Shown: piece by piece, positions 75 to 21,624 of the stretch
Layout: every line of letters starts with the position of its first letter
Numbering within the stretch: position 1 is the first letter of the stretch
Assembly (NCBI GenBank): GCA_016871115.1
Contig: VFZP01000013.1
Location: 1-34,371, forward strand
Reading direction: 5' to 3'
From: Acidobacteriota bacterium
GTDB lineage: Bacteria > Acidobacteriota > Terriglobia > Bryobacterales > Bryobacteraceae
DNA length: 34,371 nt
The notes under the pieces: model-generated
The model's input: the letters and a program-made list of their open reading frames with translations, nothing else
Databases searched by the model: none
Told to the model about the DNA's origin: nothing
Made by a program: the position numbers and the translations under genes

Positions 75-102
75 GATCAAAAAAATACGTTTTTACATGA
101 TC
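75..102. terminator. AT-rich inverted repeat at the 3' end of addA, overlapping its stop codon
   Basis: GATCAaaaaaatacgtttttacaTGATC: GATCA/TGATC arms around A-tract/T-tract; on the minus strand TAA is followed by AAAACGTATTTTTTT. Confidence 0.35.
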
Positions 103-3100
103 GCTAACAAAACGCGCAGCAACCACCCACGCGCGGGCTGTTTTGTGAGCTGAGCGGCCGCGTGGACGTACCAGCGGAGCTGCGTCTCGTAGTGCCGGCG
201 GCGCGAGTGGAAGTCCGCGTCGGTCTTGTAGTCGACGATCTGCCATGACGCGCCGTCGAAGTAAGCGAGGTCCACAATGCCTTCGAGGAGGCGGCCGTCC
301 GCCGCGCGGAAGCGAACCGGCCACTCGCGGTGGACGCGTGGCGCGGCGGCGGCCGCTTGCAGCAGAGGATGCGCGAGCGTGGCGGCCACGGCTTCCGCCG
401 CGGCGGCGCGCTCTTCCTCCGGCGCGCCCATGATGCGGCTCTGCAGTTCCACCTGCGTCTCGACGGTTTCACGCGTGGCGCGGAAATCGATGTCGCGCAT
501 CACCACATGGAGGAGCACTCCGAAATGCGAGCCGAAGGCGCGCGGCGTTGCCGTGTCGCGGCGGGCATCCGCCACGTCCACTGGCAGCACGGCGGGAGGC
601 GGCTCAGTGGCTTCGCTCGGCGAGAAGATTGTGAAAGCCGGTGTGGCTCCGCGTGCGGCGATGGCCTCACGCTGCTCGCGCCACGCTTCGTACGCCGTGA
701 TGCTGGCAGACTCTTCGTCGCCCGCCAACACCTCCTCCTGCCGGAAACCGTAGTTGGCTTCGACGCCCAACTTCAATGCCCCGGGGTCCCACCACACCAA
801 GCGGTGCGCGCCGGCCGAGGGAGTGACCAAGCCGGGCCTCACCGACATCTCTCCGCCCCGGTTCATCTCCGGCGGCCGGCTGAGCACGGAGCTGTCTCCG
901 AAACGCGGGCAGCCATCGGCTTGCGGCTCGGAGCGGCGGAAGGCGCCCTTCTCCGGATACACGGCACGCCACAGCGGCGATAGCCAACTGTCCTGCACTT
1001 CTTCGTCGCCCACCGTGGGCACCACCAGAAGGTCACGCGCACGGGTGGCCGCGACGTACGCCACGCGCACGCCCTCGGCTTGCTCACGCGCCAGTTCGCG
1101 GTCACGATGTGCAAGCAGCGGCCACGGCGTGCATTGCAGCAGGCGCATGGCGCACAGGTGGCGCTCGGAATCCACGTAGCGATCCGGCTCGCGAGGCGAC
1201 AGGTTCGCGGTCATGTCGGCGAGGATCACCACGGGAAACTCCAGGCCCTTGGCGGCATGCACGGTCATCATGCGGACGCCTTCGGAGCCTTCTTCGAGGG
1301 CGGGCGCTTCGGACGACTCGGCCTTTTCCACCTGCGCTTCCAGCATCTCCACAAAGCCACGGAACGAGATGCCGCCTTCGCTTTCATAACCGCGCGCCAC
1401 GTCGGCCACGCGATACACGTTGGCCAGCACCTGTTGGCCACCGGGGCGCAGAGCAAAGCCCGCGTGCGCGCGGGTGAATTCGAGGAGCTGATGCACGGTG
1501 GCCGCCACGGGCCGCCAGTTGCGCTGGCGGTGCAGTTCGCGCAGCAACTCCAAGGCCTGGCGAATCGGCGTGAACTTTGCGTCGAGTTGATCGAGGTCCG
1601 GCAGGTACGGCGACAGCCGCTTGTACAAGAGCCGGAACTCGAGCAGCAATGCATCGGGGATCGCGAACAACGAGCCTTTGAGCGCCGCGAAGACCGAGAG
1701 TTCATCGCCCGGCCACTCCACGGCGGCCAAGGCCGCGCGCAGCGTTTCCACCTCCTCGCGCGCGTGGAACGAACGCGAGCCCACGAGCAGGTGGGGGATG
1801 CCGCGGGCTTCGAGGCTGCGTGTATAGTCGCGCGTGAGGTCACGCCCGAAGCTGGTGAAGCGGCGGAACAGCAAGCAGATGTGGCGCGCGGAGATGGGCG
1901 TGAACGCACCCGTGTCGGGGTCTTCCACCTGCCAGCCGCTTTCGTTGATGAGCCACTCGGCGTAGGCGGCGATCGTGTCCGGCAGGCAGTTGTTGATCTC
2001 GATCTTCGAGAGCCGGAACATGCCATAAGGACGCGGCGCGGGTAGCGCGACGACGGAGGGCTGCCCGGTGAGCGGGGTGCGAACTTCTTCGAGAGGTGAG
2101 TACTCGGCTTGGCCCGCTTCCATGTCGCCCGTCATCTCCGGCGCGAAGGCGGCGTTCACCATTTGCTGAATCGGGTGCACGGAACGGAAGCTGCGAGTGA
2201 GGCGGACCACGCCCACGCCGCGCCCGGCGAGCCGGTCTCGCAGGCCGCGATACAGCACGACGTCCGCGCGGCGGAATTTGTAGATGGACTGCTTGGGGTC
2301 GCCCACGAGGAACAGCTTGCCCGGCACGGGCGTGACGTCGAGCCAGTCATCCGCGGCCGCGGCGTCTGAGCAGAGCAGCAGGAGGAGTTCCGCTTGCACC
2401 GGGTCTGTGTCCTGGAACTCGTCAACGAAGATATGCGAGAAGCGGCGCTGGAGGAACTCGCGCACTTCGCGGTTGTCGCGCACGAGGTCGCGCGCCTTCA
2501 GCAGCAGGTCATGAAAATCGAGGAGCCCCGCCTGGCGCTTGAGTTCTTCGTAACGCTCAACGAGGCCTGACATTTCTTCCCGCAACGCGTGCGCAAGATC
2601 GGCTTCAGACTGCACGCGGAACTGGTCCAGCGCGTACGTCAACTCCTCAGCGCCTTTCGCCTTGATGCGGGTGAGATCGCGCAGGAGCTTGAGGAGCAGC
2701 GCTTCAAGCGTATCGTAGTCACGTGCGCCAACCGCTTCAGACCGCTCGATCCACGCGGCGAGATCCGTGACCACCTGGAACTTCTGGTTCACGCGCGGCG
2801 CCATCTGCCGCACACGCTCGGCCAGTAGGTCCACTTCCGTGGCGCGGTCCCACTCCACGCGATCCCACGGCGTGGGATAGTCGCGCCATTCAATCAACGC
2901 GCGGCCCGCGGACTTCAGCCGGTCCAGCGGGGCTTCCTCGCCGGGCTGCAGCGCGAGGCGGATCAGCGCGCGGCGCAGCCCGGGCGCCGTTTCGTTGAGC
3001 TGCTCCTGGATCCAGGCGCGAAACGCCCGCTCCTGGATCTGGCGGCTTGCGAGTTCGGTGAGTTCGCGGAAGGCCGGATCCACGCGCGCCTCCACCGGGC

Positions 3101-3473
3101 GCTCACGCAGGATCTGTCCGCAGAAGGCGTGGATGGTGCCGATGGACGCTTCTTCGAGATGCGCCAGCGCGCCTTCGAGCGCCGCGCGCCGCTGATCGCT
3201 GTCTTCCTCGGCGCGTGCACGGTCAAGCTCCTGCCGCAGGCGAAGCTTCAACTCGCCGGCGGCTTTGTTGGTGAAGGTGACGGCGGCAATCTTGTCGATG
3301 TCAGCGCCTTCGGCCAGCACAGCCACGATCCGGCGTACCAGTTCCGTCGTCTTGCCCGTGCCCGCGGAGGCCTCCACGATGAGGCTTTCTTGTAGCGATG
3401 TGCGGATGCGCTCACGCGCCGCCGCGTCTTCGTTGTCGCGCGGTACGAGCCGAAGCCCTGCGCCGCTACTCAT
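93..3473 (-). CDS. addA: AddA/RecB-like UvrD-family helicase-nuclease (exonuclease V-type)
   Basis: Walker A EASAGTGKTTELVRR, VTFTNKAAGEL, GTIHAFC, FVDEFQDTDPVQ, VGDPKQSIYKFRRAD, TVHAAKGLEFPVVIL, VAATRARDLL; C-terminal nuclease EGIVDLAYFDG...IVDYKTD...QLRWY. ATG at 3473 overlaps the addB stop. Confidence 0.9.
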   Translation of the reverse strand: MSSGAGLRLVPRDNEDAAARERIRTSLQESLIVEASAGTGKTTELVRRIVAVLAEGADIDKIAAVTFTNKAAGELKLRLRQELDRARAEEDSDQRRAALEGALAHLEEASIGTIHAFCGQILRERPVEARVDPAFRELTELASRQIQERAFRAWIQEQLNETAPGLRRALIRLALQPGEEAPLDRLKSAGRALIEWRDYPTPWDRVEWDRATEVDLLAERVRQMAPRVNQKFQVVTDLAAWIERSEAVGARDYDTLEALLLKLLRDLTRIKAKGAEELTYALDQFRVQSEADLAHALREEMSGLVERYEELKRQAGLLDFHDLLLKARDLVRDNREVREFLQRRFSHIFVDEFQDTDPVQAELLLLLCSDAAAADDWLDVTPVPGKLFLVGDPKQSIYKFRRADVVLYRGLRDRLAGRGVGVVRLTRSFRSVHPIQQMVNAAFAPEMTGDMEAGQAEYSPLEEVRTPLTGQPSVVALPAPRPYGMFRLSKIEINNCLPDTIAAYAEWLINESGWQVEDPDTGAFTPISARHICLLFRRFTSFGRDLTRDYTRSLEARGIPHLLVGSRSFHAREEVETLRAALAAVEWPGDELSVFAALKGSLFAIPDALLLEFRLLYKRLSPYLPDLDQLDAKFTPIRQALELLRELHRQRNWRPVAATVHQLLEFTRAHAGFALRPGGQQVLANVYRVADVARGYESEGGISFRGFVEMLEAQVEKAESSEAPALEEGSEGVRMMTVHAAKGLEFPVVILADMTANLSPREPDRYVDSERHLCAMRLLQCTPWPLLAHRDRELAREQAEGVRVAYVAATRARDLLVVPTVGDEEVQDSWLSPLWRAVYPEKGAFRRSEPQADGCPRFGDSSVLSRPPEMNRGGEMSVRPGLVTPSAGAHRLVWWDPGALKLGVEANYGFRQEEVLAGDEESASITAYEAWREQREAIAARGATPAFTIFSPSEATEPPPAVLPVDVADARRDTATPRAFGSHFGVLLHVVMRDIDFRATRETVETQVELQSRIMGAPEEERAAAAEAVAATLAHPLLQAAAAAPRVHREWPVRFRAADGRLLEGIVDLAYFDGASWQIVDYKTDADFHSRRRHYETQLRWYVHAAAQLTKQPARGWLLRVLLAIM

Positions 3474-6400
3474 GGCAACCCTCGCAGGCGATTCAATGCG
3501 TCCAACCGCTCCGCCGGTTTGCGCCGCAAGCGCTCTTCTTCGCGCGGGCCGCACACACGCTCGTAGTCACACATCGTGCACGCTTCGCGCGCGGGGGCGG
3601 CCGGCAAGAACCCTTGCGCGAGCGCTTCGTCGATTCCCTCCAGCACCTGCTCCAGATGCTGCCGGGCGATCGGCTTCACCGGCACGCTGTATTCCTTGTA
3701 GCCGCCACGCTGCGTGCAATAAAACAGACGCCCCATGGAAACGGGCTGTCCCAGCATCTGCCCGGCGGCCAGCGAATACAGCAGCGGCTGCAAAACCGCG
3801 CCGCCGCCCACCGCCATTGGAGCTTTGTCGAGGGGGCGGCCTGTCTTGTGATCCGTGATGCGAATCAGGCCTGACTCGCGGTGGCGCTCCACCAGATCGA
3901 TCGATCCGCGGAGCCGCACGCCTGCCATCGGCGCCACATCTTCGGCGCGCGAAGCATCGTCACGCGAGCCGCCGCGTTCTTTCAACCCGAAGCCCAGCTC
4001 AAAGTGAACCGGCGTCCATTCGTCGTCAATGGTGGCCACGTGCCGCGCCCATGTGCGCAGATCGGTGCGCAGGTCTTCGATCTCGCTCACCCACACGCGG
4101 TCAATCGCGGGCGCCAGCTTCTCGCGCCACTGCTCGGCTACCTGATTCAACGCGCGGTCTGCATGCTCCAGCGCGGGGGCGAGCCGCGAACGGTCCAGCG
4201 GCAAAAGACCTTCGTGCTTCATCGCCTGGAAGAACGTGAACTGCGCTTCGTGGAACAACGCGCCGCGCGTCAACGGGTCCAGTTGCTCCAACGCGGCAAT
4301 GCCGTCGCGTTCGCGAAGCCCGTGCACGGCCTGCAGAAAGAAACGATACGGGCACGAAGCATACTGCTGCAGCGAGGTGGCCGAATAGACGCGGGCGCTC
4401 AAACGGTGGGCCTCCAGCAAACCCGCCGTGGGCGCGTCTTTGCTCGCCACCAATCCATCCGCCCATGACCAGGCGTTCTTCCAACGCAACCACCGCGTGC
4501 GCAGCGAACGCGCCAAGTGGGTGTTGACCGCCAGCAGATACCGCCCCACGCCGCGACGGCGTTCCGGCGGCAAGTCTTCAAACTGCCGCAACGACGCAAT
4601 ATCGTATTCGGTATCGTCAATGGCCTCGCGTGGATCCGCCGGCGCGGGCCATCCCAAACGCGACGGCGCGGCCTTGGCGGCGCGCTCCTGAAACTTGCGC
4701 AACTCCGGCAATGCGCCTTCGGCAGCACGCACCACTTCCAGCGCATAAAACGACGGCACGCGCGGGCGCGATTGCGCGGTATCCATGCGCGGATAGGACA
4801 CCACCAGTTGCTGCTCGGCGGCACCTGCCGCGACGGCTAACAGGAGCCGCTCGCGCGCCACTAGTTGATCGCGCCCGGGCAGCGGATGCGGCAAGGCGCG
4901 GCGGTAATGATCCAGTAACAGCGGATCCTCGTACGCTTTGCGCGGAAAGACTCCCTCGGTAAGGCCCGGGAGAAACACGACGTCGAACCGGTGCGCGCGG
5001 GCCTCCTCAATCGTGCCGCAGAACACCGCGCCATATCGCCGCGACGGTGGGTCGGCGCGCAAGAAGCGCAGGCGATCCTGCAACACGCCGTACACTTCAT
5101 CCAGCGTCGCGGGGCCCACTTCGCCCATCGGCCGCAGTTCATTTAGTACGGCCAGCACGGCTTCCGGCGCGCGCAGCGTCGTCTCGGCGAGTTCGATTAG
5201 TGCCGTCAGCCACTCGGTCCACTTTGCGCGGCGAGGCAAGGCGTCCAACAGCCCGATCACCGGCAGCGCGAAGCCTCTCAACGCGCTGAGTTGCTCCAGC
5301 CGGCGTGATGTGCCCTCGCTCTCGGCGCTGCTCAGTTGTAGCTTCAACTCTTCCTCGTAACCGTCAATGCGGCGCTCCCAACGCGCGCGCCCGCCCACCA
5401 CGGCGGCATCCACCAGCAACTGCTCCCAGCCGCGCGGCGCGGTGATCACCGGGCCCGGTCCAGCAGCCTCGCCCTGCGGCGACTCACCCGTGTCGGCGTC
5501 CGGTTGGAAGCCTGCCAGCAGTTCGTCCTGCGGCGGCGTGAAACCACGTTCCACACGCACCGGGCCGCCGCCGGCATCGAGATCCGGCACCTGCGCCAGC
5601 GATAGATACTCAGCAAAGCGCGACGCTGAACAATCTTCCGCCGCGCATTGCAGCAGCGCCAGAAACGCACGGCCTGCCGGATCCGGACGCGCGGACCCAC
5701 GCGGAAAAAACGCCGGAATGCCAGCCCGGCGCAACGCGTCCTCGAGCAACGGCTGATACTTCTCCGGGTTGCGCATCAGTGCGGCCATCGCGTCGAACGG
5801 CAGTCCTGCTGCCGCGAGCTTCTGGATGCGGCGCGAGATCTCCACACACTCCAGGCCCTCGCCCGGCGCCGAGAACACTGCCAACGAGTCATCCACCGGT
5901 GCGGCTTCGAGGTGTGTTTCAAACACCTGCCGCCGCAGGCGCGCCAGAGTTTTCTCTTCCCGCGCATCGCCGTCCACTGCGCCGATTTCAGCCGCTACGC
6001 CGAGCGCCGCTTCCAGATGCTTGCGCGATTCTTCGTCCGCCTCGAGCGTCACGGCCAGTACCGCGGGCGAGCGCTGTACGAACGCCGCCACCAACTCGCG
6101 TTGCCTGGCAGACCGCACAGCCACGTCGAGCATCAGCACCGGCAATCCCAGGACGCGGTGCGTGCCATCGCCGGCGGCCTTCAGCGCGAGGCCGTAGAGC
6201 GTGGCTTGATCAGAGAGAGACTGCTGCTGCAGTTGCGCCGCGAAGTCCAGGTGCAGCCGCGCAAGATCCGCCCCGGGCGCGCCGGTGGCGGCGAGTTCGG
6301 CGGCCCCCACGTTCTCCATGCGCAGCTCGGTGAGCGTGCGTGCCGCCGCGCGCACAAAGCCCGGCGTATCGGCGACGGGGTGGAAATAGGGTAAGCGCCG

Positions 6401-6700
6401 GCTCGCGCGCAACTCATGCACCACGCGCGCCACCAGCGCTTCGAGCCCCAGCATGCTGACCGGAGCCAGCCCCCAGCGCGCGAGTTCGGGAGAAGCAAGC
6501 TGCGCGGCGAGGTGCGACAGCGTGAGCGTATGGACGCCGAGGAGCCCTTCGCCGCACACTTTGCGAAGAAGATCGTCCGCCGCGCTGCGCGATGGAGCCA
6601 GCACCAGCATTTCCGATGCGCCGCCGCGATGCGCCTCCAGAAACGCGGCCGCTTCGGCATGCATGGCCGCGGCGGCCGGAAAGCGAACGAGCCGCGTCAC
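3470..6700 (-). CDS. addB: AddB-like subunit with PD-(D/E)XK nuclease and probable Fe-S cysteines
   Basis: 1076 aa; SCPYRFF, GSIDLVERH...ITDHKTGRPL, Cys tail EACTMCDYERVC; directly upstream of addA; GTG start at 6700. Confidence 0.82.
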   Translation of the reverse strand: MTRLVRFPAAAAMHAEAAAFLEAHRGGASEMLVLAPSRSAADDLLRKVCGEGLLGVHTLTLSHLAAQLASPELARWGLAPVSMLGLEALVARVVHELRASRRLPYFHPVADTPGFVRAAARTLTELRMENVGAAELAATGAPGADLARLHLDFAAQLQQQSLSDQATLYGLALKAAGDGTHRVLGLPVLMLDVAVRSARQRELVAAFVQRSPAVLAVTLEADEESRKHLEAALGVAAEIGAVDGDAREEKTLARLRRQVFETHLEAAPVDDSLAVFSAPGEGLECVEISRRIQKLAAAGLPFDAMAALMRNPEKYQPLLEDALRRAGIPAFFPRGSARPDPAGRAFLALLQCAAEDCSASRFAEYLSLAQVPDLDAGGGPVRVERGFTPPQDELLAGFQPDADTGESPQGEAAGPGPVITAPRGWEQLLVDAAVVGGRARWERRIDGYEEELKLQLSSAESEGTSRRLEQLSALRGFALPVIGLLDALPRRAKWTEWLTALIELAETTLRAPEAVLAVLNELRPMGEVGPATLDEVYGVLQDRLRFLRADPPSRRYGAVFCGTIEEARAHRFDVVFLPGLTEGVFPRKAYEDPLLLDHYRRALPHPLPGRDQLVARERLLLAVAAGAAEQQLVVSYPRMDTAQSRPRVPSFYALEVVRAAEGALPELRKFQERAAKAAPSRLGWPAPADPREAIDDTEYDIASLRQFEDLPPERRRGVGRYLLAVNTHLARSLRTRWLRWKNAWSWADGLVASKDAPTAGLLEAHRLSARVYSATSLQQYASCPYRFFLQAVHGLRERDGIAALEQLDPLTRGALFHEAQFTFFQAMKHEGLLPLDRSRLAPALEHADRALNQVAEQWREKLAPAIDRVWVSEIEDLRTDLRTWARHVATIDDEWTPVHFELGFGLKERGGSRDDASRAEDVAPMAGVRLRGSIDLVERHRESGLIRITDHKTGRPLDKAPMAVGGGAVLQPLLYSLAAGQMLGQPVSMGRLFYCTQRGGYKEYSVPVKPIARQHLEQVLEGIDEALAQGFLPAAPAREACTMCDYERVCGPREEERLRRKPAERLDALNRLRGLP

Positions 6701-7572
6701 GCCTTCTTGCGGGGTTTCCGCGCGGGCGCGGCATCGTTGGTGCCGGTTAGCAGCAATTGTTGTTCGGGCTCGGCCTGATCGGAGTCTGCCCCCGCGGCGG
6801 CGGGCTTCTTGAAGGCCGCCAGACTGGTCTTCAGGGCTTCCATGATGTCGATCACCGGCGCGAGTTCCTGCGCGGCGGGTGGCGCCACCACATCCTGATC
6901 CTTCACCTCGGACTCAATCATGTTCTTCAGCGACTCGCGGTAGGTGTCCTTATACTTCTCCGGCTCGAAGTGTCCGCCCAGCGCCATCACCAGACTCTTG
7001 GCCATCAGCAGTTCTTTGTCCTGGACCATTCCGGTGTTGACGCGGAACTCGTCAATGGCGCGCACTTCGTCCTGGTAGTACATGGTGTGCAGCAGGATGC
7101 CGTGGCGGCCCGGGCGCAGCACTACCGTGTGCTCGCGGTTGTGCATGGTAATCTTGGCCAGCGCAAATTGTCCGGAGTCGTTCATCGCCGCATACAACAG
7201 CGTGTAGGCCTTTTCGCCCGCTTCGTCCGGCTGCAGGTAGTAGCTGCTTTCGAGGTACACCGGGTCGAGTTCAGACGCGGGCACGAACTCGAGGATTTCC
7301 ATCACTTTTGCCGTTTTCGGCTGGATCTTCTTGATGTCCTCTTTCTCGATGATGACGTAGCGGTCTTTCTCATACTCGAAGCCCTTGACGAGTTCGCTAC
7401 GCGGCACCGGTTTGTCCGTACTGGCGGAGAAAAGCACCTGCTTGACGCGCGAGTGGTCCGCCTTGTGGAGTTGATTGAAGCTTACGGTTTCCGGCCGCGC
7501 GGCGACGGTCATCTTCACGGGAATGGAGACCATGCCGAACGTGATATGACCTTTCCAATTAGTCGCTGCCAT
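6697..7572 (-). CDS. ku: Ku protein, bacterial NHEJ
   Basis: WKGHITFGMVSIPVKMTVAARPETVSFNQLHKADHSRVKQVLFSASTDKPVPRSELVKGFEYEKDRYVIIEKEDI; basic C-terminal tail RKPRKKA. Confidence 0.95.
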   Translation of the reverse strand: MAATNWKGHITFGMVSIPVKMTVAARPETVSFNQLHKADHSRVKQVLFSASTDKPVPRSELVKGFEYEKDRYVIIEKEDIKKIQPKTAKVMEILEFVPASELDPVYLESSYYLQPDEAGEKAYTLLYAAMNDSGQFALAKITMHNREHTVVLRPGRHGILLHTMYYQDEVRAIDEFRVNTGMVQDKELLMAKSLVMALGGHFEPEKYKDTYRESLKNMIESEVKDQDVVAPPAAQELAPVIDIMEALKTSLAAFKKPAAAGADSDQAEPEQQLLLTGTNDAAPARKPRKKA

Positions 7573-15292: not shown

Positions 15293-15339
15293 GACCGGAG
15301 CGGGTTGCGATTTCGCCGTAGTTCCGAACAGGGCGCTTT

Positions 15340-15375
15340 CCCCGGACGCCAGATCCGGGGCGTCCGTACCGGTAC
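15340..15375. repeat. Two mutually exclusive hairpins plus a 10-bp palindrome
   Basis: CCCCGGA(cgccaga)TCCGGGG and GGACGCC(agatccgg)GGCGTCC share bases; followed by GTACCGGTAC. Confidence 0.5.
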
Positions 15376-15417
15376 TGTGATTGATGGCCTAGGGCCCTCC
15401 CAACGTGACTTATCCTC

Positions 15418-16230
15418 GTTAGTGAGTTTTTGGCCTCTGTGCGTCCTGTTTGTCCCGCTGATTGGCGTAACAGTTGCGGGTTCCATGGTGGACGACTCGT
15501 CGAAACCCATTTCTCTTTGCCGGACTTCGGTCTGTTCTGCGTGTGCGGTTTCCAGGAAGGCGCCGGCGTTTACTCGATATCTGTCCAATGAGTAGTCAGG
15601 TGGCACGGCAACATCAACCGCGCGGGCGGCTGCCGCTGTTCCTTACGGACGGCCAGCCCACTCGGCCAATATGGCGAATCTGCAGGATAAGGCCGGCGAT
15701 TCCTGTAGCAGCGATGCGCCCAAGAACGGCTGGTTGGCGCTGGCGCCAGTGGGTCGAAGCGTGGCCTGTTTGCGCCTATACCGCGGCGCCGCCGGCAGAC
15801 AACGATGCGATCGCCGCTTCTAGATCGTCAGGTTGCAGCTACGCAAGCAACCTGTCCAATCTGAACAACGGTATCTTCCACCTCACCGGCGGCGGCGCGA
15901 ACCTGCTGACGGGCACAAGTACGTGAGCCGATTCGATCGGCCGCATTCGGGTTGACGGCTGCCAAACGCTCATCAAATCAATCAATGTGGCCACGAACGC
16001 CCGGGCCAGCGCGGCCAGCCGGGCGCGTGCGGACGCCGTCAGCCGCGGCCTGGAATTGGCGACCCTCGCCATCGGAGTGGGTGCACAGGCGCGGGATTGC
16101 CAACACCGCCGTCAGTGCCAGCTACGGCAATACGAAGCCGACGCGCATGTATATCGGCGCCGACAACCTCACGCAGCTTGACGAAGCGTTTGCCGCGCTT
16201 GCTTCGGAGACGATGCGCTTTGCCAAATAA
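15418..16230 (+). pseudogene. TadG-like VWA-domain protein remnant, multiply frameshifted
   Basis: Fragments across frames: LFVPLIGVTVAGS; LFLTDGQPT; GCSYASNLSNLNNG; IRVDGCQTLIKSINVATNA...LATLAIGVGA; GIANTAVSASYGNTKPTRMYIGADNLTQLDEAFAALASETMRFAK*. Confidence 0.65.
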
Positions 16231-16250
16231 GTAAGCCGCGCGCCGGCGTG

Positions 16251-17435
16251 TTACTTCTTCTCGGGCGGTGGGGGCCAGCCCACGATGGACTTGGCGTCCA
16301 CCGCCACACTCAGCCGGAACGGTTCAGCGGAAAACGCGACCGGCTTGCCCTCAAACTCCAACGCAATACCCACCTCCGGGCAGCGCGGCTGGGCGGCGTC
16401 GAGCTTCAGGACCACTTCCTCAACGGCTGAGTCCTGCAAGCCCAGGTACACTTCGGTGGGCTTGGGGTCCGCGTCGCAGCGCACCACGTAGCCCTTCACC
16501 AGCGGCAAGGCGCCTTCTGCCAGTTTCTGATACTCGGCCTGTGCGCCCGCGCCGGTCAGCCGGCGGCGGATCTTGACCCAGGTGAACAACTGCGGATTGG
16601 TAGCCTGCATCTGTTCGTCTGCCTTGCGCTGGGCTACTTCGGCGGCGGTCTCGATCTTGAAATCCGCGGCCGGTTTGTTGACGGCGGCTGCCTTGGCCGC
16701 CGCGCCGATCTCATCGAGACCATCGAGCGCGCCATGATAGCCCGTGTAGGCGGCTTCGAGCAATGTGCGCACGTCGCGGCGCTGCGCCGCGGCCAGTGCG
16801 CCGGCGCCATCGGTATAGGAGGCGCGGGCCAGATGCCAGATGGCCTCCACTTGCCTCGACGGCTCTTTCTGCGTGGCCATCATCGCGCCCAGCCACGCCG
16901 ATACTTCGGCGTTGCGCGGCGCGGCGGCGAGAGACAGGAACAGTTCTTTCTCGGCTGCCGCCGCATCGCCGCGCTGCCAGGCGGCCCAGCCCAAGGTGCG
17001 ATGCGCCAGGGCGGTGACTTCGTCTTTCTGCGCGGCGGGCTGCGTGGCGGCCACCTTCACCAGGCGGCGCGCCCACTGCTCCGCTTCAGCCAGCGCGGCG
17101 GGCGTGGGGGCCAGGGGCGCTTGCGGGGCGAACAAGGTCAGCCAGTAGAGTCCGGTGAAGTGATCGGCGTTCACGGCCACCAGTTCGCGCGCGGCCTCCG
17201 TCATCTTTGTCTTGTCGCCCAAAAACTGCGCGGCGGCGAGGATCATCTCAGCGCGCTGCGGACGAAGCGCGGAGTTGGGAAACTTCTGCTTCCATTGCTC
17301 GAGCAGGGGCAGGCGTTGCGCGGGGGCTTTCTGCGCGCGGACGGCGAGGGCGAGGTCATACTCGTCGCGGCTGGTCCAGTCTTGCGCCAGCGCGGCCGAT
17401 GTGGCCAGTAGCAGGGAAGGGAACAGGCGTCTCAT
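16251..17435 (-). CDS. Exported TPR-like hypothetical protein, third gene of caspase operon
   Basis: Signal peptide MRRLFPSLLLATSAALAQ; helical repeat-like sequence; ATG overlaps upstream stop (ATGA 17435-17432). Confidence 0.7.
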   Translation of the reverse strand: MRRLFPSLLLATSAALAQDWTSRDEYDLALAVRAQKAPAQRLPLLEQWKQKFPNSALRPQRAEMILAAAQFLGDKTKMTEAARELVAVNADHFTGLYWLTLFAPQAPLAPTPAALAEAEQWARRLVKVAATQPAAQKDEVTALAHRTLGWAAWQRGDAAAAEKELFLSLAAAPRNAEVSAWLGAMMATQKEPSRQVEAIWHLARASYTDGAGALAAAQRRDVRTLLEAAYTGYHGALDGLDEIGAAAKAAAVNKPAADFKIETAAEVAQRKADEQMQATNPQLFTWVKIRRRLTGAGAQAEYQKLAEGALPLVKGYVVRCDADPKPTEVYLGLQDSAVEEVVLKLDAAQPRCPEVGIALEFEGKPVAFSAEPFRLSVAVDAKSIVGWPPPPEKK

Positions 17436-19156
17436 TGCAGGTCCAGGTCCGAAGTGACATTGGCGCGCACGCGCACGCGCCGCTCCTGCGTCTTGCGGCC
17501 CGCTTCCATGAGCCGCAGCTCATACTCGCCGGCGGGCAAGCGCAGCGTATAGGGGAGTTGACGCGCGACGGCCTTGCCGTCCAGCATCACGCCCAGGCCT
17601 TTCTTGGTAGACCGAACCGTGAGTTCGCCGAACTCTTCCGAGACCAGATCGCGGGCGCCAGCTACGGACTTTACCTCCACATACAAGTCATCCAGCGTGA
17701 TGCGCGGCTCATCGGCGGCCGGGGCGGGCGCCGCGGCGGCGGTTTGCACCGGTTGCTCGGCGGCTGCTGCTGCCGGCGCCGGCGCCGCGGCGGGCTGCTC
17801 CTTCGGCGCCGCCGGCGGAGGAGGCAGTTGCTTGATCAGCCCCGCATAGTCCACCCGCACCGGTTGCCGCGCCCAGCGGCGCCCGGCTTCCCAATCGGGC
17901 ACGCCGAAGCGCAGCCCCGGAAACAGTTCCGCCAGCGGCGGAGGCTTCATCAGCCCGCCCTTCAACGCTTCGGCCGCGGCGGGTTCAGCGGCGGCCAGTT
18001 CCTTCAACATTGTGCCGGCGCGCTGCACGTCGGGCGTGGCTCCGCGCTGGCGTACGGCTTCGAGCGCCGCCACCGCGCGCTTCAGGTCTGCCGTGAGGAG
18101 CGCGCTGTTGGCTGCTTCGAGGCCCGCGTCCACGGCAAAGGGGTCCAGTTTCAGCGCGGCCTCGGCTGCGGTCGCCGCCGCCGCAAATTCGCCGGCGTCG
18201 AACTTTGTCTCTGCTTCGTAGCGCGTCTTCAGATACGGCAAGCGCGCCCGGGCGGCTTCTTCCACGGATCCGCCGGGTTTCTGCTTGATGATGCGCCCGG
18301 CCAACTCCATCGCCTCCGGCCAGTTTTCGTATTGCTCGTTGCGCAGCATGTCGCCGAGCCACTTGGCCACGATCGACTCGTCATTTTCCGCCACGGCGTT
18401 GCTGGGCGGATGAAAGTAGAACTTCGATGTCAGGCTGGTGTTGGACCACGGTGTTTGCTTGCCGCCGGTGGCGTCTTCCACCCTCTTCCGGACGCGCGTG
18501 AACACGTCGTCCACGGTCAGGTTTGGCTGCGCGATCGCTTCGGCGAGCGCTTCGGTGAACCAGGAGTTGGTCCCGTTCGGGTTGTCGGTTGCCACGTTGC
18601 CGGGCTGCGTGGAAAACGCGATGTAGGTGCGGGCGCCCGCCGCGCCGGTGGGGTCAGCGAGGCCAGCCTTCAATTGGTACGTCTCGGCCACCGGATTGGT
18701 GCGGCAGGCATCGAGAACCACAATGATGCTCTTGGCCTTCGAGCCCTTCAACTCATCGAACACCAGCTTCAGCGAGAACGACTTCAGCTTGGCGTCAATC
18801 AAACTCCTGGCGGACTCGAAATCCGTGGGGATCAGGACATTCTCGCCGCCCACCTGGATGGCATGGCCGGCGTAGAAAATCAACGCTACATCGTTGGGGC
18901 CGATGTTGAACAGGAACTCGCTGACGGCTTCTTCCATCGCCGCCTTCGCTGCATTCTCACGCTTGATCACCTTGAAGCCCGCGCCTTGCAACGCTTTCTC
19001 CATCGCGCGCGCGTCGTTCACGGCGTTCTGCAGCGGCCGGATCGAATAGGTGTCGTTGCCAATCACCAGCGCAATGCGCTTGCCCTCCTCAGCTGCCGGC
19101 TGCGCCCACAGGGCCGCGGCCGCCGCGAGTGTCCACAAACCAACCAGCTTCTTCAT
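17432..19156 (-). CDS. Exported caspase-like (C14) peptidase with C-terminal PEGA-like domain
   Basis: Signal peptide MKKLVGLWTLAAAAALWAQ; RIALVIGNDTY; FYAGHA (His) and VVLDACRTNP (Cys) dyad; C-terminal LTVRSTKKGLGVMLDGKAVARQLPYTLRLPAGEYELRLMEAGRKTQERRVRV. Confidence 0.9.
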   Translation of the reverse strand: MKKLVGLWTLAAAAALWAQPAAEEGKRIALVIGNDTYSIRPLQNAVNDARAMEKALQGAGFKVIKRENAAKAAMEEAVSEFLFNIGPNDVALIFYAGHAIQVGGENVLIPTDFESARSLIDAKLKSFSLKLVFDELKGSKAKSIIVVLDACRTNPVAETYQLKAGLADPTGAAGARTYIAFSTQPGNVATDNPNGTNSWFTEALAEAIAQPNLTVDDVFTRVRKRVEDATGGKQTPWSNTSLTSKFYFHPPSNAVAENDESIVAKWLGDMLRNEQYENWPEAMELAGRIIKQKPGGSVEEAARARLPYLKTRYEAETKFDAGEFAAAATAAEAALKLDPFAVDAGLEAANSALLTADLKRAVAALEAVRQRGATPDVQRAGTMLKELAAAEPAAAEALKGGLMKPPPLAELFPGLRFGVPDWEAGRRWARQPVRVDYAGLIKQLPPPPAAPKEQPAAAPAPAAAAAEQPVQTAAAAPAPAADEPRITLDDLYVEVKSVAGARDLVSEEFGELTVRSTKKGLGVMLDGKAVARQLPYTLRLPAGEYELRLMEAGRKTQERRVRVRANVTSDLDLQ

Positions 19157-21624
19157 CGCTTCCCTCTTGCCCCGGCGCCAGCCGCGGCGAAAAATACTTC
19201 TCTCGACCGCTGATCGAGCGACTCATCCTTGTCGCATTCAGCCGAAACCAGCGTGGCCCCGTTCCAAACGTATTTGATCTTGCCGTCTTTCTGGCCGGCG
19301 CGAAACTCCTCGCCCACCAGACGGTCTTGCTGATACTGCATCGTGCGTTCGTAGATCTGCGGGCCGCGCGGCGCATCGGCCGCCGTCAACTGATACACGC
19401 GCACCGCCTGCAAGCGCATCTCGTTCCACTCAAACTCGGCCAACACCGGCGGCCGCGCGCCCGGCTCCTTTTCGGCCAGTTGGCGCGCGCTCTTCACGCG
19501 TCCGCGCTCGTCATATTCAAATGCAAAGTAGTAGGGCCGCTCCCACACAAACGGATGGAAGAAGCGATTGCCCGCCACGCCCACCGTGGCCTGACGCCCG
19601 GTGAGCCGGCCGAGCATGGCGGTGTCGATCAACGGGCTGTTGGGCAGAATCAAGTTCGATGCCGCCAGCAGCGCGTCGGTCCCTTCGGGCGCTTTGTGCG
19701 CGGCGTCCGCCGCGTCGGCCGCAAACGGATGCGGGATCTTATCGGTGTGGGAAAACGTGATGGTTTTTTCGGCCGCGCCGGCTGACGCCTTTTCAAACGT
19801 GGGTACGATGGAGCGCAGCCGCGGACCGTCCCAGTTGAACTTGGTGGACAGTTTGCCCGACGCTTCAATGCGGTCGATGCGCGCCGCAAAGCCGAGACTC
19901 AGCGGACAGTAGGCCGCGCCCGCCGGCGTGGGTGCGCCGGAGAGCCAGTGGCCGGCGGCATCCGCCGCGGTGAGATTCGCCGCGGGCGCCGTGGCCGCCA
20001 GGCCCAGCCAGCGCGCCACGCGGGCGCGCTGCTCACCGTTCGCATCGAGCGAGTCCGACACGTCCAGATACTTGTTCAGCCGCGCCAGGCCCGTCTTGCG
20101 GTCATGCGTCACCAGCGCGCCCAAGCCGCCGTAGTAGAGAAACACCGGGTCGTTTTCGTCGGCCAGCAGGGCCTTTTTCGCCAGAGCGGAGGTTTCGTGA
20201 TACTGCGCGGCCTCCCAGGCCTTCGCCAGCCGTTCGCGCACGCTCGTGCGCAGGTCGTCCAGCTGGAAGGCCAGTTCCCCGCGCAGCTTGTTGCCCGCTT
20301 CGCGTTCGCGCTCGATGGCCAGCAGATCGTAGTTGTCCAACGTGCGCAGTGCCCGCGCCGTTTCGCCCCGCGCGCCGAGTACACTTGCTTTGGTCAACAG
20401 GAGCGGCAACGATTCCGAATCGATCCGCTCGGCCACGGCGATCTTCTCCATGGCCTCGTCCAGCTTGTTCTGCTGACGGTACCGGTCTGCCATGTTGCGG
20501 TTTTGTTCAATCACGTCGAGATCGCCCGGCGAGAGCTGCTTGCGGCGATTCTGCCGGTCGACGGCCGATTGGCGCGAGTAGTTGGCCCAGGCGCGCGCCA
20601 CGTCGCTGGAAAGATCAGCCTGCGAAGGCTTGCGGAGGCTCGCCAGGCGCAGTTCGTTGAAGGCCCTGCGAAACTCGCCGCGGTCCGTACGCGCGCGGCC
20701 AGACTTCCAATGTCCGTCCAGGCTCGCCTGCATCGCCGCGCGCTGCTGCCTGGACAATTCCGGGAACGAGCCCTGGTGTTTTTCAAACGGCCGGTACGCC
20801 AGCAGAAACGCATCCCATTGCCGCCCGGCGGCGAGGGTTTTGAGAATCGCGATGCGTTGATCGAGCCAGGCTTTGCCCGCCGCCAGCTTTGCGCGGGCTT
20901 CTTTGTGTTCGGGCACGTCGGCATACGCTTTGGCCGAGAGCTCCGACATCTTGAGGCCTTCACTGAGCGACTGCGCGCTGTTTACGCCGGCATCGAAGCG
21001 CTCCCGCCGCACGCGGAGGAACTCGGCCACGCGCCGCTCCACCGTGGCCATCGCCGGATCCGATCCATGCGCCGCCACGGCCGCCGACGTGAGTTCGATC
21101 TGCACGGGAAACACGCCTGCTTCGCCGCCGCCTAATAGCGCCAAGGCGGTGCGGTCCATGCATATCGCCGCCAGTTCCTTCACTCCGCCCGCCAGATACG
21201 CGACGAACTCGTTCGCCGGCACAGGCAGCGGCGTCTTGCCCTTCTCCGCCTTCTTGTAGGTGAGCGCGGCTTCCTTCCATGCGTCAGGCGGCGCGGGGAA
21301 CGGTTTCTTTAAAATCCCCTGCGGATACACATATTGCAACGAAGGGCCGTAGTGCACCAGCACGCCGGAGCCCGTGTCGCGCAGCAGCGTCGCACCGAGC
21401 TTCACATGCTGAAGCTTGTTGAAGGGAGTTGCCGTGGCGGGCTTGTCGCCGAGAATCTCCACGCGGTCTTTGCCGTTCACCTCGAGGTCCCAGGCGGGCG
21501 CAAAGCGCAGCCCGTCGGCCGCGCGCGTCACCAGTAAGCCCTGCGCGGCGGCAGGCGGGCACAGCAGGGCAGCAGCAGCCGTAGCGGCAATCGAAAACAG
21601 ACGGACGAACGCAGCAGGTTGCAT
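19153..21624 (-). CDS. Exported 823-aa hypothetical protein, first gene of caspase operon
   Basis: Signal peptide MQPAAFVRLFSIAATAAAALLCPPAAAQG; long uninterrupted ORF; no family recognised; stop overlaps caspase ATG (ATGA 19156-19153). Confidence 0.8.
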   Translation of the reverse strand: MQPAAFVRLFSIAATAAAALLCPPAAAQGLLVTRAADGLRFAPAWDLEVNGKDRVEILGDKPATATPFNKLQHVKLGATLLRDTGSGVLVHYGPSLQYVYPQGILKKPFPAPPDAWKEAALTYKKAEKGKTPLPVPANEFVAYLAGGVKELAAICMDRTALALLGGGEAGVFPVQIELTSAAVAAHGSDPAMATVERRVAEFLRVRRERFDAGVNSAQSLSEGLKMSELSAKAYADVPEHKEARAKLAAGKAWLDQRIAILKTLAAGRQWDAFLLAYRPFEKHQGSFPELSRQQRAAMQASLDGHWKSGRARTDRGEFRRAFNELRLASLRKPSQADLSSDVARAWANYSRQSAVDRQNRRKQLSPGDLDVIEQNRNMADRYRQQNKLDEAMEKIAVAERIDSESLPLLLTKASVLGARGETARALRTLDNYDLLAIEREREAGNKLRGELAFQLDDLRTSVRERLAKAWEAAQYHETSALAKKALLADENDPVFLYYGGLGALVTHDRKTGLARLNKYLDVSDSLDANGEQRARVARWLGLAATAPAANLTAADAAGHWLSGAPTPAGAAYCPLSLGFAARIDRIEASGKLSTKFNWDGPRLRSIVPTFEKASAGAAEKTITFSHTDKIPHPFAADAADAAHKAPEGTDALLAASNLILPNSPLIDTAMLGRLTGRQATVGVAGNRFFHPFVWERPYYFAFEYDERGRVKSARQLAEKEPGARPPVLAEFEWNEMRLQAVRVYQLTAADAPRGPQIYERTMQYQQDRLVGEEFRAGQKDGKIKYVWNGATLVSAECDKDESLDQRSREVFFAAAGAGARGKR

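Follow-up and report, generated by a model that had tools for sequence, protein, structure and literature searches.

Gene layout and protein architecture

The window (the whole 34,371-nt stretch of DNA that was analysed) is an entire contig, C13 of the 6.3-Mb draft genome G000, and carries three minus-strand genes, each starting with ATG and running into the next through a stop/start overlap (Table 1). Their products of 823, 574, and 394 aa are referred to hereafter as p823, p574, and p394, after their lengths. The same three overlapping frames had been picked out in an earlier sequence-only reading, which is borne out here. The p574-p394 joint is an ATGA in 8/12 operons examined, and joints elsewhere lie within 61 nt. 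Scans for promoters and terminators gave no signal exceeding that of shuffled sequence. Downstream of p394 (window 15300-16240) the minus-strand frames are broken and no clear gene is visible, perhaps the trace of a decayed gene. A cluster for DNA break repair occupies positions 96-7572 of the window, where genes for AddA/AddB-like helicase-nucleases precede one for Ku.

Table 1. Features of the three-gene operon, in window coordinates
Feature	Position	Strand	Basis
p823, exported (inferred) TPR protein with N-terminal beta domain and RHS/YD-like C-terminal beta domain	19153..21624	-	ORF, AlphaFold, ortholog TPR families, Foldseek
p823 putative signal peptide, residues 1-28	21541..21624	-	hydrophobic segment, Ala-rich end; low pLDDT 1-26
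p823 N-terminal beta domain, residues 29-145	21190..21540	-	AlphaFold secondary structure; no Pfam match
p823 helical/TPR solenoid, residues 148-542	19999..21183	-	AlphaFold, Foldseek, ortholog TPR families
p823 C-terminal beta domain, about residues 570-812, RHS-like	19189..19917	-	AlphaFold, Foldseek
ATGA stop/start overlap, p823-p574	19153..19156	-	sequence
p574, exported (inferred) caspase-TPR-PEGA protease	17432..19156	-	ORF, Pfam
p574 caspase (Peptidase_C14) domain, residues 26-247	18416..19081	-	PF00656, E 3e-41
p574 catalytic His98 codon (FYAGHA)	18863..18865	-	invariant in 12/12 canonical operons examined
p574 catalytic Cys151 codon (LDACRTNP)	18704..18706	-	invariant in 12/12; only Cys of p574
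p574 TPR-like region, about residues 275-380	18017..18334	-	TPR_16 E 0.008, TPR_19 E 0.03, LapB E 0.006: weak
p574 PEGA domain, residues 509-573	17438..17632	-	PF08308, E 7.9e-7
ATGA stop/start overlap, p574-p394	17432..17435	-	sequence
p394, exported (inferred) TPR protein with small C-terminal beta domain	16251..17435	-	ORF, AlphaFold, ortholog TPR families

All three proteins begin with a short hydrophobic stretch that ends in an Ala-rich, cleavage-like site (AAAQ, LWAQ, and ALAQ). By composition these N-termini resemble Sec signal peptides, which is consistent with the signal peptide previously assigned to each protein and suggests export; no lipoprotein signal was recognised at the N-termini of the three.

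The match of p574 to PF00656 (142 bits, compared to a Pfam cut-off of 21.4) is the sole one in the window genome, and PF08308 also scores above its cut-off (29.3 vs 20.8 bits), in agreement with the PEGA-like module that the sequence-only reading had placed at the end of this protein. The caspase dyad, which had been recognised from its two motifs, is intact: H98 and C151, as well as D48, D149, and D191, are invariant in 12/12 canonical operons examined, and the dyad and pocket residues remain unchanged even though some canonical p574s are only about 46% identical to that of the window. The three Asp are candidates for an acidic pocket that would accept Arg/Lys at P1, two of them (D48 and D149) having Asp counterparts in an alignment with MALT1, and p574 would probably cleave after Arg or Lys. 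The PADLOC generic caspase model matches p574 (E 1e-18); the EACC1-associated caspase model NF047832 gives 67.5 bits, far under the NCBIfam cut-off of 140 bits. Known orthocaspases share with p574 the PF00656 domain, the His/Cys dyad, and, putatively, the acidic pocket residues, and TPR partners are common among them (PMC3501461, PMC6426788). Unlike them, p574 is apparently exported, has a C-terminal PEGA domain, and belongs to a strictly co-occurring set with two TPR proteins.

As single sequences, p823 and p394 gave no significant match in Pfam, NCBIfam, or PADLOC. Their AlphaFold models (pLDDT of 87 for p823 and 91 for p394) found TPR superhelices in Foldseek, and TPR families were matched in up to 8/17 orthologs of p823 and up to 9/13 of p394. 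The repeats thus escape single-sequence searches and are revealed by ortholog alignments, and the helical-repeat character noted earlier for both flanking proteins can now be specified as TPR. All three products are therefore TPR proteins, the matches in p574 being weak; TPR proteins are so abundant in these genomes that this content alone carries little information. The C-terminal domain of p823, within which lies the family signature N[RPK][FY]FxPF[VA]W, bears a weak likeness to teneurin and Tse15 Rhs structures (Foldseek prob 0.93-0.99, E about 3e-3), and RHS_repeat was matched in only 1/17 p823 orthologs (E 0.004). The p394 alignment gave a weak profile match to LbcA (PA4667, E 1e-3), which may be generic TPR similarity.

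Conservation and distribution of the three genes

Relatives of p823 occur in 20/200 genomes of the order Bryobacterales. Full-length relatives of p574 (≥455 bits) are present in 15/200, and p394 of the operon type (≥269 bits) in the same 15 genomes, which are also those carrying the close p823 group. Each gene pair co-occurs with a hypergeometric probability of 7e-23, computed without correction for phylogeny, and the three-gene set is found together far beyond chance. The genomes are drafts, from which genes may be missing, and genes at related loci were called with a simple codon-usage script. The three genes are adjacent on one contig in all genomes unless the contig ends within p574 (G043 and G123), in which case a second contig ends with the tail of p574 next to p394. 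A conserved-neighbourhood analysis, which the sequence-only reading had set as a check on its proposal, thus finds the three genes to be neighbours in the 15 genomes as far as contigs permit, and the scattered homologs that would have refuted the proposal were not seen in this set. The mirror-tree correlation between the three proteins has an r of 0.94-0.96 for pairwise distances, a value which common ancestry alone also raises, and dN/dS ratios of 0.08-0.25 point to purifying selection on all three genes.

A scan of 84,980 species with a single peptide pattern, giving a count that is a lower bound, returned at least 21 p823 loci, nearly all from entries labelled as MAGs and all under Bryobacterales/Solibacteraceae or broader Acidobacteriota names; the carriers are described as uncultured soil Acidobacteria. 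When 396 genomes of the phylum were searched with a profile, matches outside Bryobacteraceae were to the TPR region of p823 only, and a wider spread in the phylum was rejected on these grounds. As far as found by sequence, the p823 family appears restricted to this one family of Acidobacteriota. A mobile or viral origin was likewise rejected, p823 having no relatives in viral contigs or phages at the sensitivity used; plasmids gave only matches to p574, over its caspase domain.

p394 also belongs to a paralog family present in 192/200 genomes. Four of these paralogs (L200, L203, L204, and L205) adjoin genes which, named by eye, are sodium/solute-symporter-like and APC-permease-like. A role for p394 drawn from this near-universal family was rejected, as the transporter-like neighbours gave no pointer to a role with a caspase.

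Outside the canonical set, the caspase domain is not always intact. A closely related paralogous locus (L042) has Tyr in place of the caspase His and Ser in place of Cys, with the fold kept. This is the pattern of the known YS pseudo-orthocaspases (PMC6426788), although those are described in a photosynthesis context and L042 lies within a p823-linked, probably exported module of Acidobacteriota. Its p823 branches within the canonical clade (99/97), indicating that caspase activity was lost. In five distant loci (L044-L048), whose split from the other p823 loci is weakly supported (79/74), a p823-like protein is accompanied by a TPR-PEGA-like one that has no caspase domain. Taken together, the dead and the domain-less cases suggest that some p823-type modules do without proteolysis.

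At one of the distant loci (L045:1710-10222) the p823-like gene lies divergently to two others, one for a zf-HC2 anti-sigma-like protein and one for a CHAT-TPR protein of 996 aa, which again is a caspase-superfamily protease. At a further distant locus (L043:8126-15317) a weak sigma-region-4 protein, a zf-HC2-DUF4384 protein, a p823-like protein, and a caspase with an intact dyad are encoded in a row. Modules of the p823 type therefore recur near signalling genes and caspase-superfamily proteases.

Kinase and DUF4384 neighbours and a second caspase locus

Ten of the 15 canonical operons adjoin a gene for a Ser/Thr kinase-TM-FGE-like fusion and/or one for an exported DUF4384 protein. The kinase fusion is found beside the operon in five genomes (G072, G089, G110, G122, and G123) and the DUF4384 protein in eight (G071, G072, G089, G090, G122, G152, G169, and G171); outer gene neighbours are otherwise diverse. 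The window operon has neither: in this genome a kinase of this type is encoded on contig C447 and a DUF4384 protein on C2, both unlinked to the operon. Kinases encoded next to the operon occupy three separate positions in the kinase tree (rough bootstrap), and there the C447 kinase is the sister (99/99) of the one next to the G072 operon. Another operon without either neighbour is that of G066, where p394 adjoins a peptidase M23 gene. DUF4384 and FGE domains are known as fusion partners of caspases (PMC3501461, PMC6426788), whereas here they reside on separate neighbouring genes.

The FGE part of the kinase, in the copies read, has no Cys in the stretch preceding the final G(F/I)RC, where the catalytic cysteines of an FGE are expected. 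Many bacterial FGE domains are reported to be without catalytic residues (PMC5915273).

In several genomes related kinase genes follow TssL/TssM genes, plus TssK in L226, with only some of the copies confirmed by Pfam. In L213, L216, L218, L220, L224, and L226 the kinase-TM-FGE gene comes directly after TssM/IcmF-like T6SS genes, with TssL/DotU and TssK genes at some of these loci, as though a kinase of the PpkA type had been joined to a sensor of the FGE type in these Acidobacteriota. Next to the operon-linked kinase genes, no T6SS gene was recognised. The neighbouring kinase is comparable to PpkA with its periplasmic activators TagR/RtkS of the threonine phosphorylation pathway (PMC10482370, PMC6082577) in its order of Ser/Thr kinase, TM segment, and extracytoplasmic domain, as well as in having relatives beside TssK/TssL/TssM, but differs in that its extracytoplasmic part is a pseudo-FGE domain.

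A second exported caspase is encoded in these genomes. Its loci (L215-L224 and L207) contain a 690-aa caspase-PEGA-TPR protein, two DUF4384 proteins, an Ig-like 'VEGEGAINN' protein, and a kinase-TM-FGE fusion, which in the loci read is of the same type as the operon-linked kinase. The 690-aa caspase keeps its dyad and has relatives in about half of the 200 Bryobacterales genomes. Like the operon, this locus pairs an apparently exported caspase carrying PEGA and TPR with DUF4384 and STK-FGE neighbours; unlike it, p823 and p394 are absent, the caspase is diverged (weak cross-match), and PEGA precedes the TPRs rather than following them. Both caspases are present in 11/15 canonical genomes, and the idea of the operon as a replacement of the 690-aa caspase was not supported.

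Possible roles of the module

Neither p823/p394 nor a PEGA caspase in Acidobacteriota was found described in the open-access papers searched, in keeping with the earlier suggestion of an undescribed system. We tentatively favour, with somewhat less than even confidence, a caspase of the envelope that has its own TPR adaptors and is probably linked to signalling by the kinase. In this reading p574 would be an orthocaspase that is exported, is equipped for catalysis, and carries TPR and PEGA in its tail. p823 and p394 would most likely act in complex with it as dedicated exported scaffolds or adaptors, which may tether it to the envelope and either present substrates to it or gate their access; cleavage would probably be after Arg/Lys. 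The stoichiometric complex and the substrate role of p823 put forward in the sequence-only reading are hypothetical. The whole would be a protease module of the envelope that is confined to one lineage, Bryobacteraceae.

The adaptor role is modelled on pairs of a TPR adaptor and a periplasmic protease such as LbcA-CtpA of Pseudomonas (PMC8764530, PMC11021448), which combines an envelope protease with a TPR partner, as the operon would. The two differ in that CtpA is a C-terminal processing protease and p574 a C14 caspase, that the operon has two putative TPR partners, and that its N-termini in the window show no recognised lipoprotein signal. Repeated linkage to the kinase and the exported DUF4384 protein further suggests that the module may feed, or be read by, the pseudo-FGE Ser/Thr kinase as an envelope-state signal. 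An exchange of signals is plausible by analogy with Pseudomonas and Serratia, where T6SS kinases of this kind are activated by periplasmic proteins (PMC10482370, PMC6082577). Both LbcA-CtpA and TagR/RtkS-PpkA serve here as working analogies, and we claim membership in neither.

An alternative, which we regard as unlikely although it is the strongest of the rivals, is a secreted or surface protease engaged in peptide scavenging or developmental processing, with the TPR proteins as anchors, no dedicated signalling, and an incidental kinase linkage. The window and G066 copies without kinase or DUF4384 neighbours, the M23 peptidase gene in G066, and the variety of outer neighbours would all suit it. 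It is at odds with the presence of kinase and/or DUF4384 genes beside 10/15 operons, involving three kinase lineages, and with the same neighbours at the distantly related caspase-TPR-PEGA locus.

More doubtful still is a specific form of the favoured envelope-caspase reading, namely an undescribed extracytoplasmic proteolytic sensing relay in which a caspase-TPR complex would make a signal read by the pseudo-FGE of a T6SS-type kinase. The caspase would then be an upstream sensor of envelope damage, and not an intracellular executioner, and derived copies would have kept the scaffold after loss of the protease. We find about as improbable a mainly structural role, in which p823 and p574-type TPR/PEGA proteins would form an envelope assembly with the caspase domain as an optional or regulatory extra. 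The Tyr/Ser copy with its retained fold and the five domain-less loci are what such an assembly would lead one to expect, but not the invariance of dyad and pocket residues in the canonical set down to about 46% identity, nor that C151 is the only Cys of the window p574.

The least probable alternative is a cell-death, anti-phage, or conflict effector, a kind of role that the sequence-only reading mentioned for bacterial C14 proteins in general, whose caspase would kill the cell once the pseudo-FGE kinase or p823 senses attack: caspases and FGE/C-type-lectin folds do occur with kinases in bacterial systems proposed to act in conflict (PMC10907252), fusions of a caspase with FGE are frequent (PMC3501461), and the PADLOC generic model is matched, but that model is all PADLOC gives, the product is seemingly exported, the EACC1-type model falls well short of its cut-off, phage and viral collections, at the sensitivity of the searches, contain no p823, and the neighbourhood lends this reading no support, with no STAND/MoxR NTPase, EAD, VMAP, or defence partner recognised among the annotated subset of neighbours.

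What caspases do in bacteria is poorly understood, and they are often proposed to be cell-death effectors. The operon, which appears to export one together with two dedicated TPR partners and is repeatedly linked to a sensor kinase, makes a role in the envelope concrete and testable, with natural active, dead, and domain-less variants at hand for comparison.
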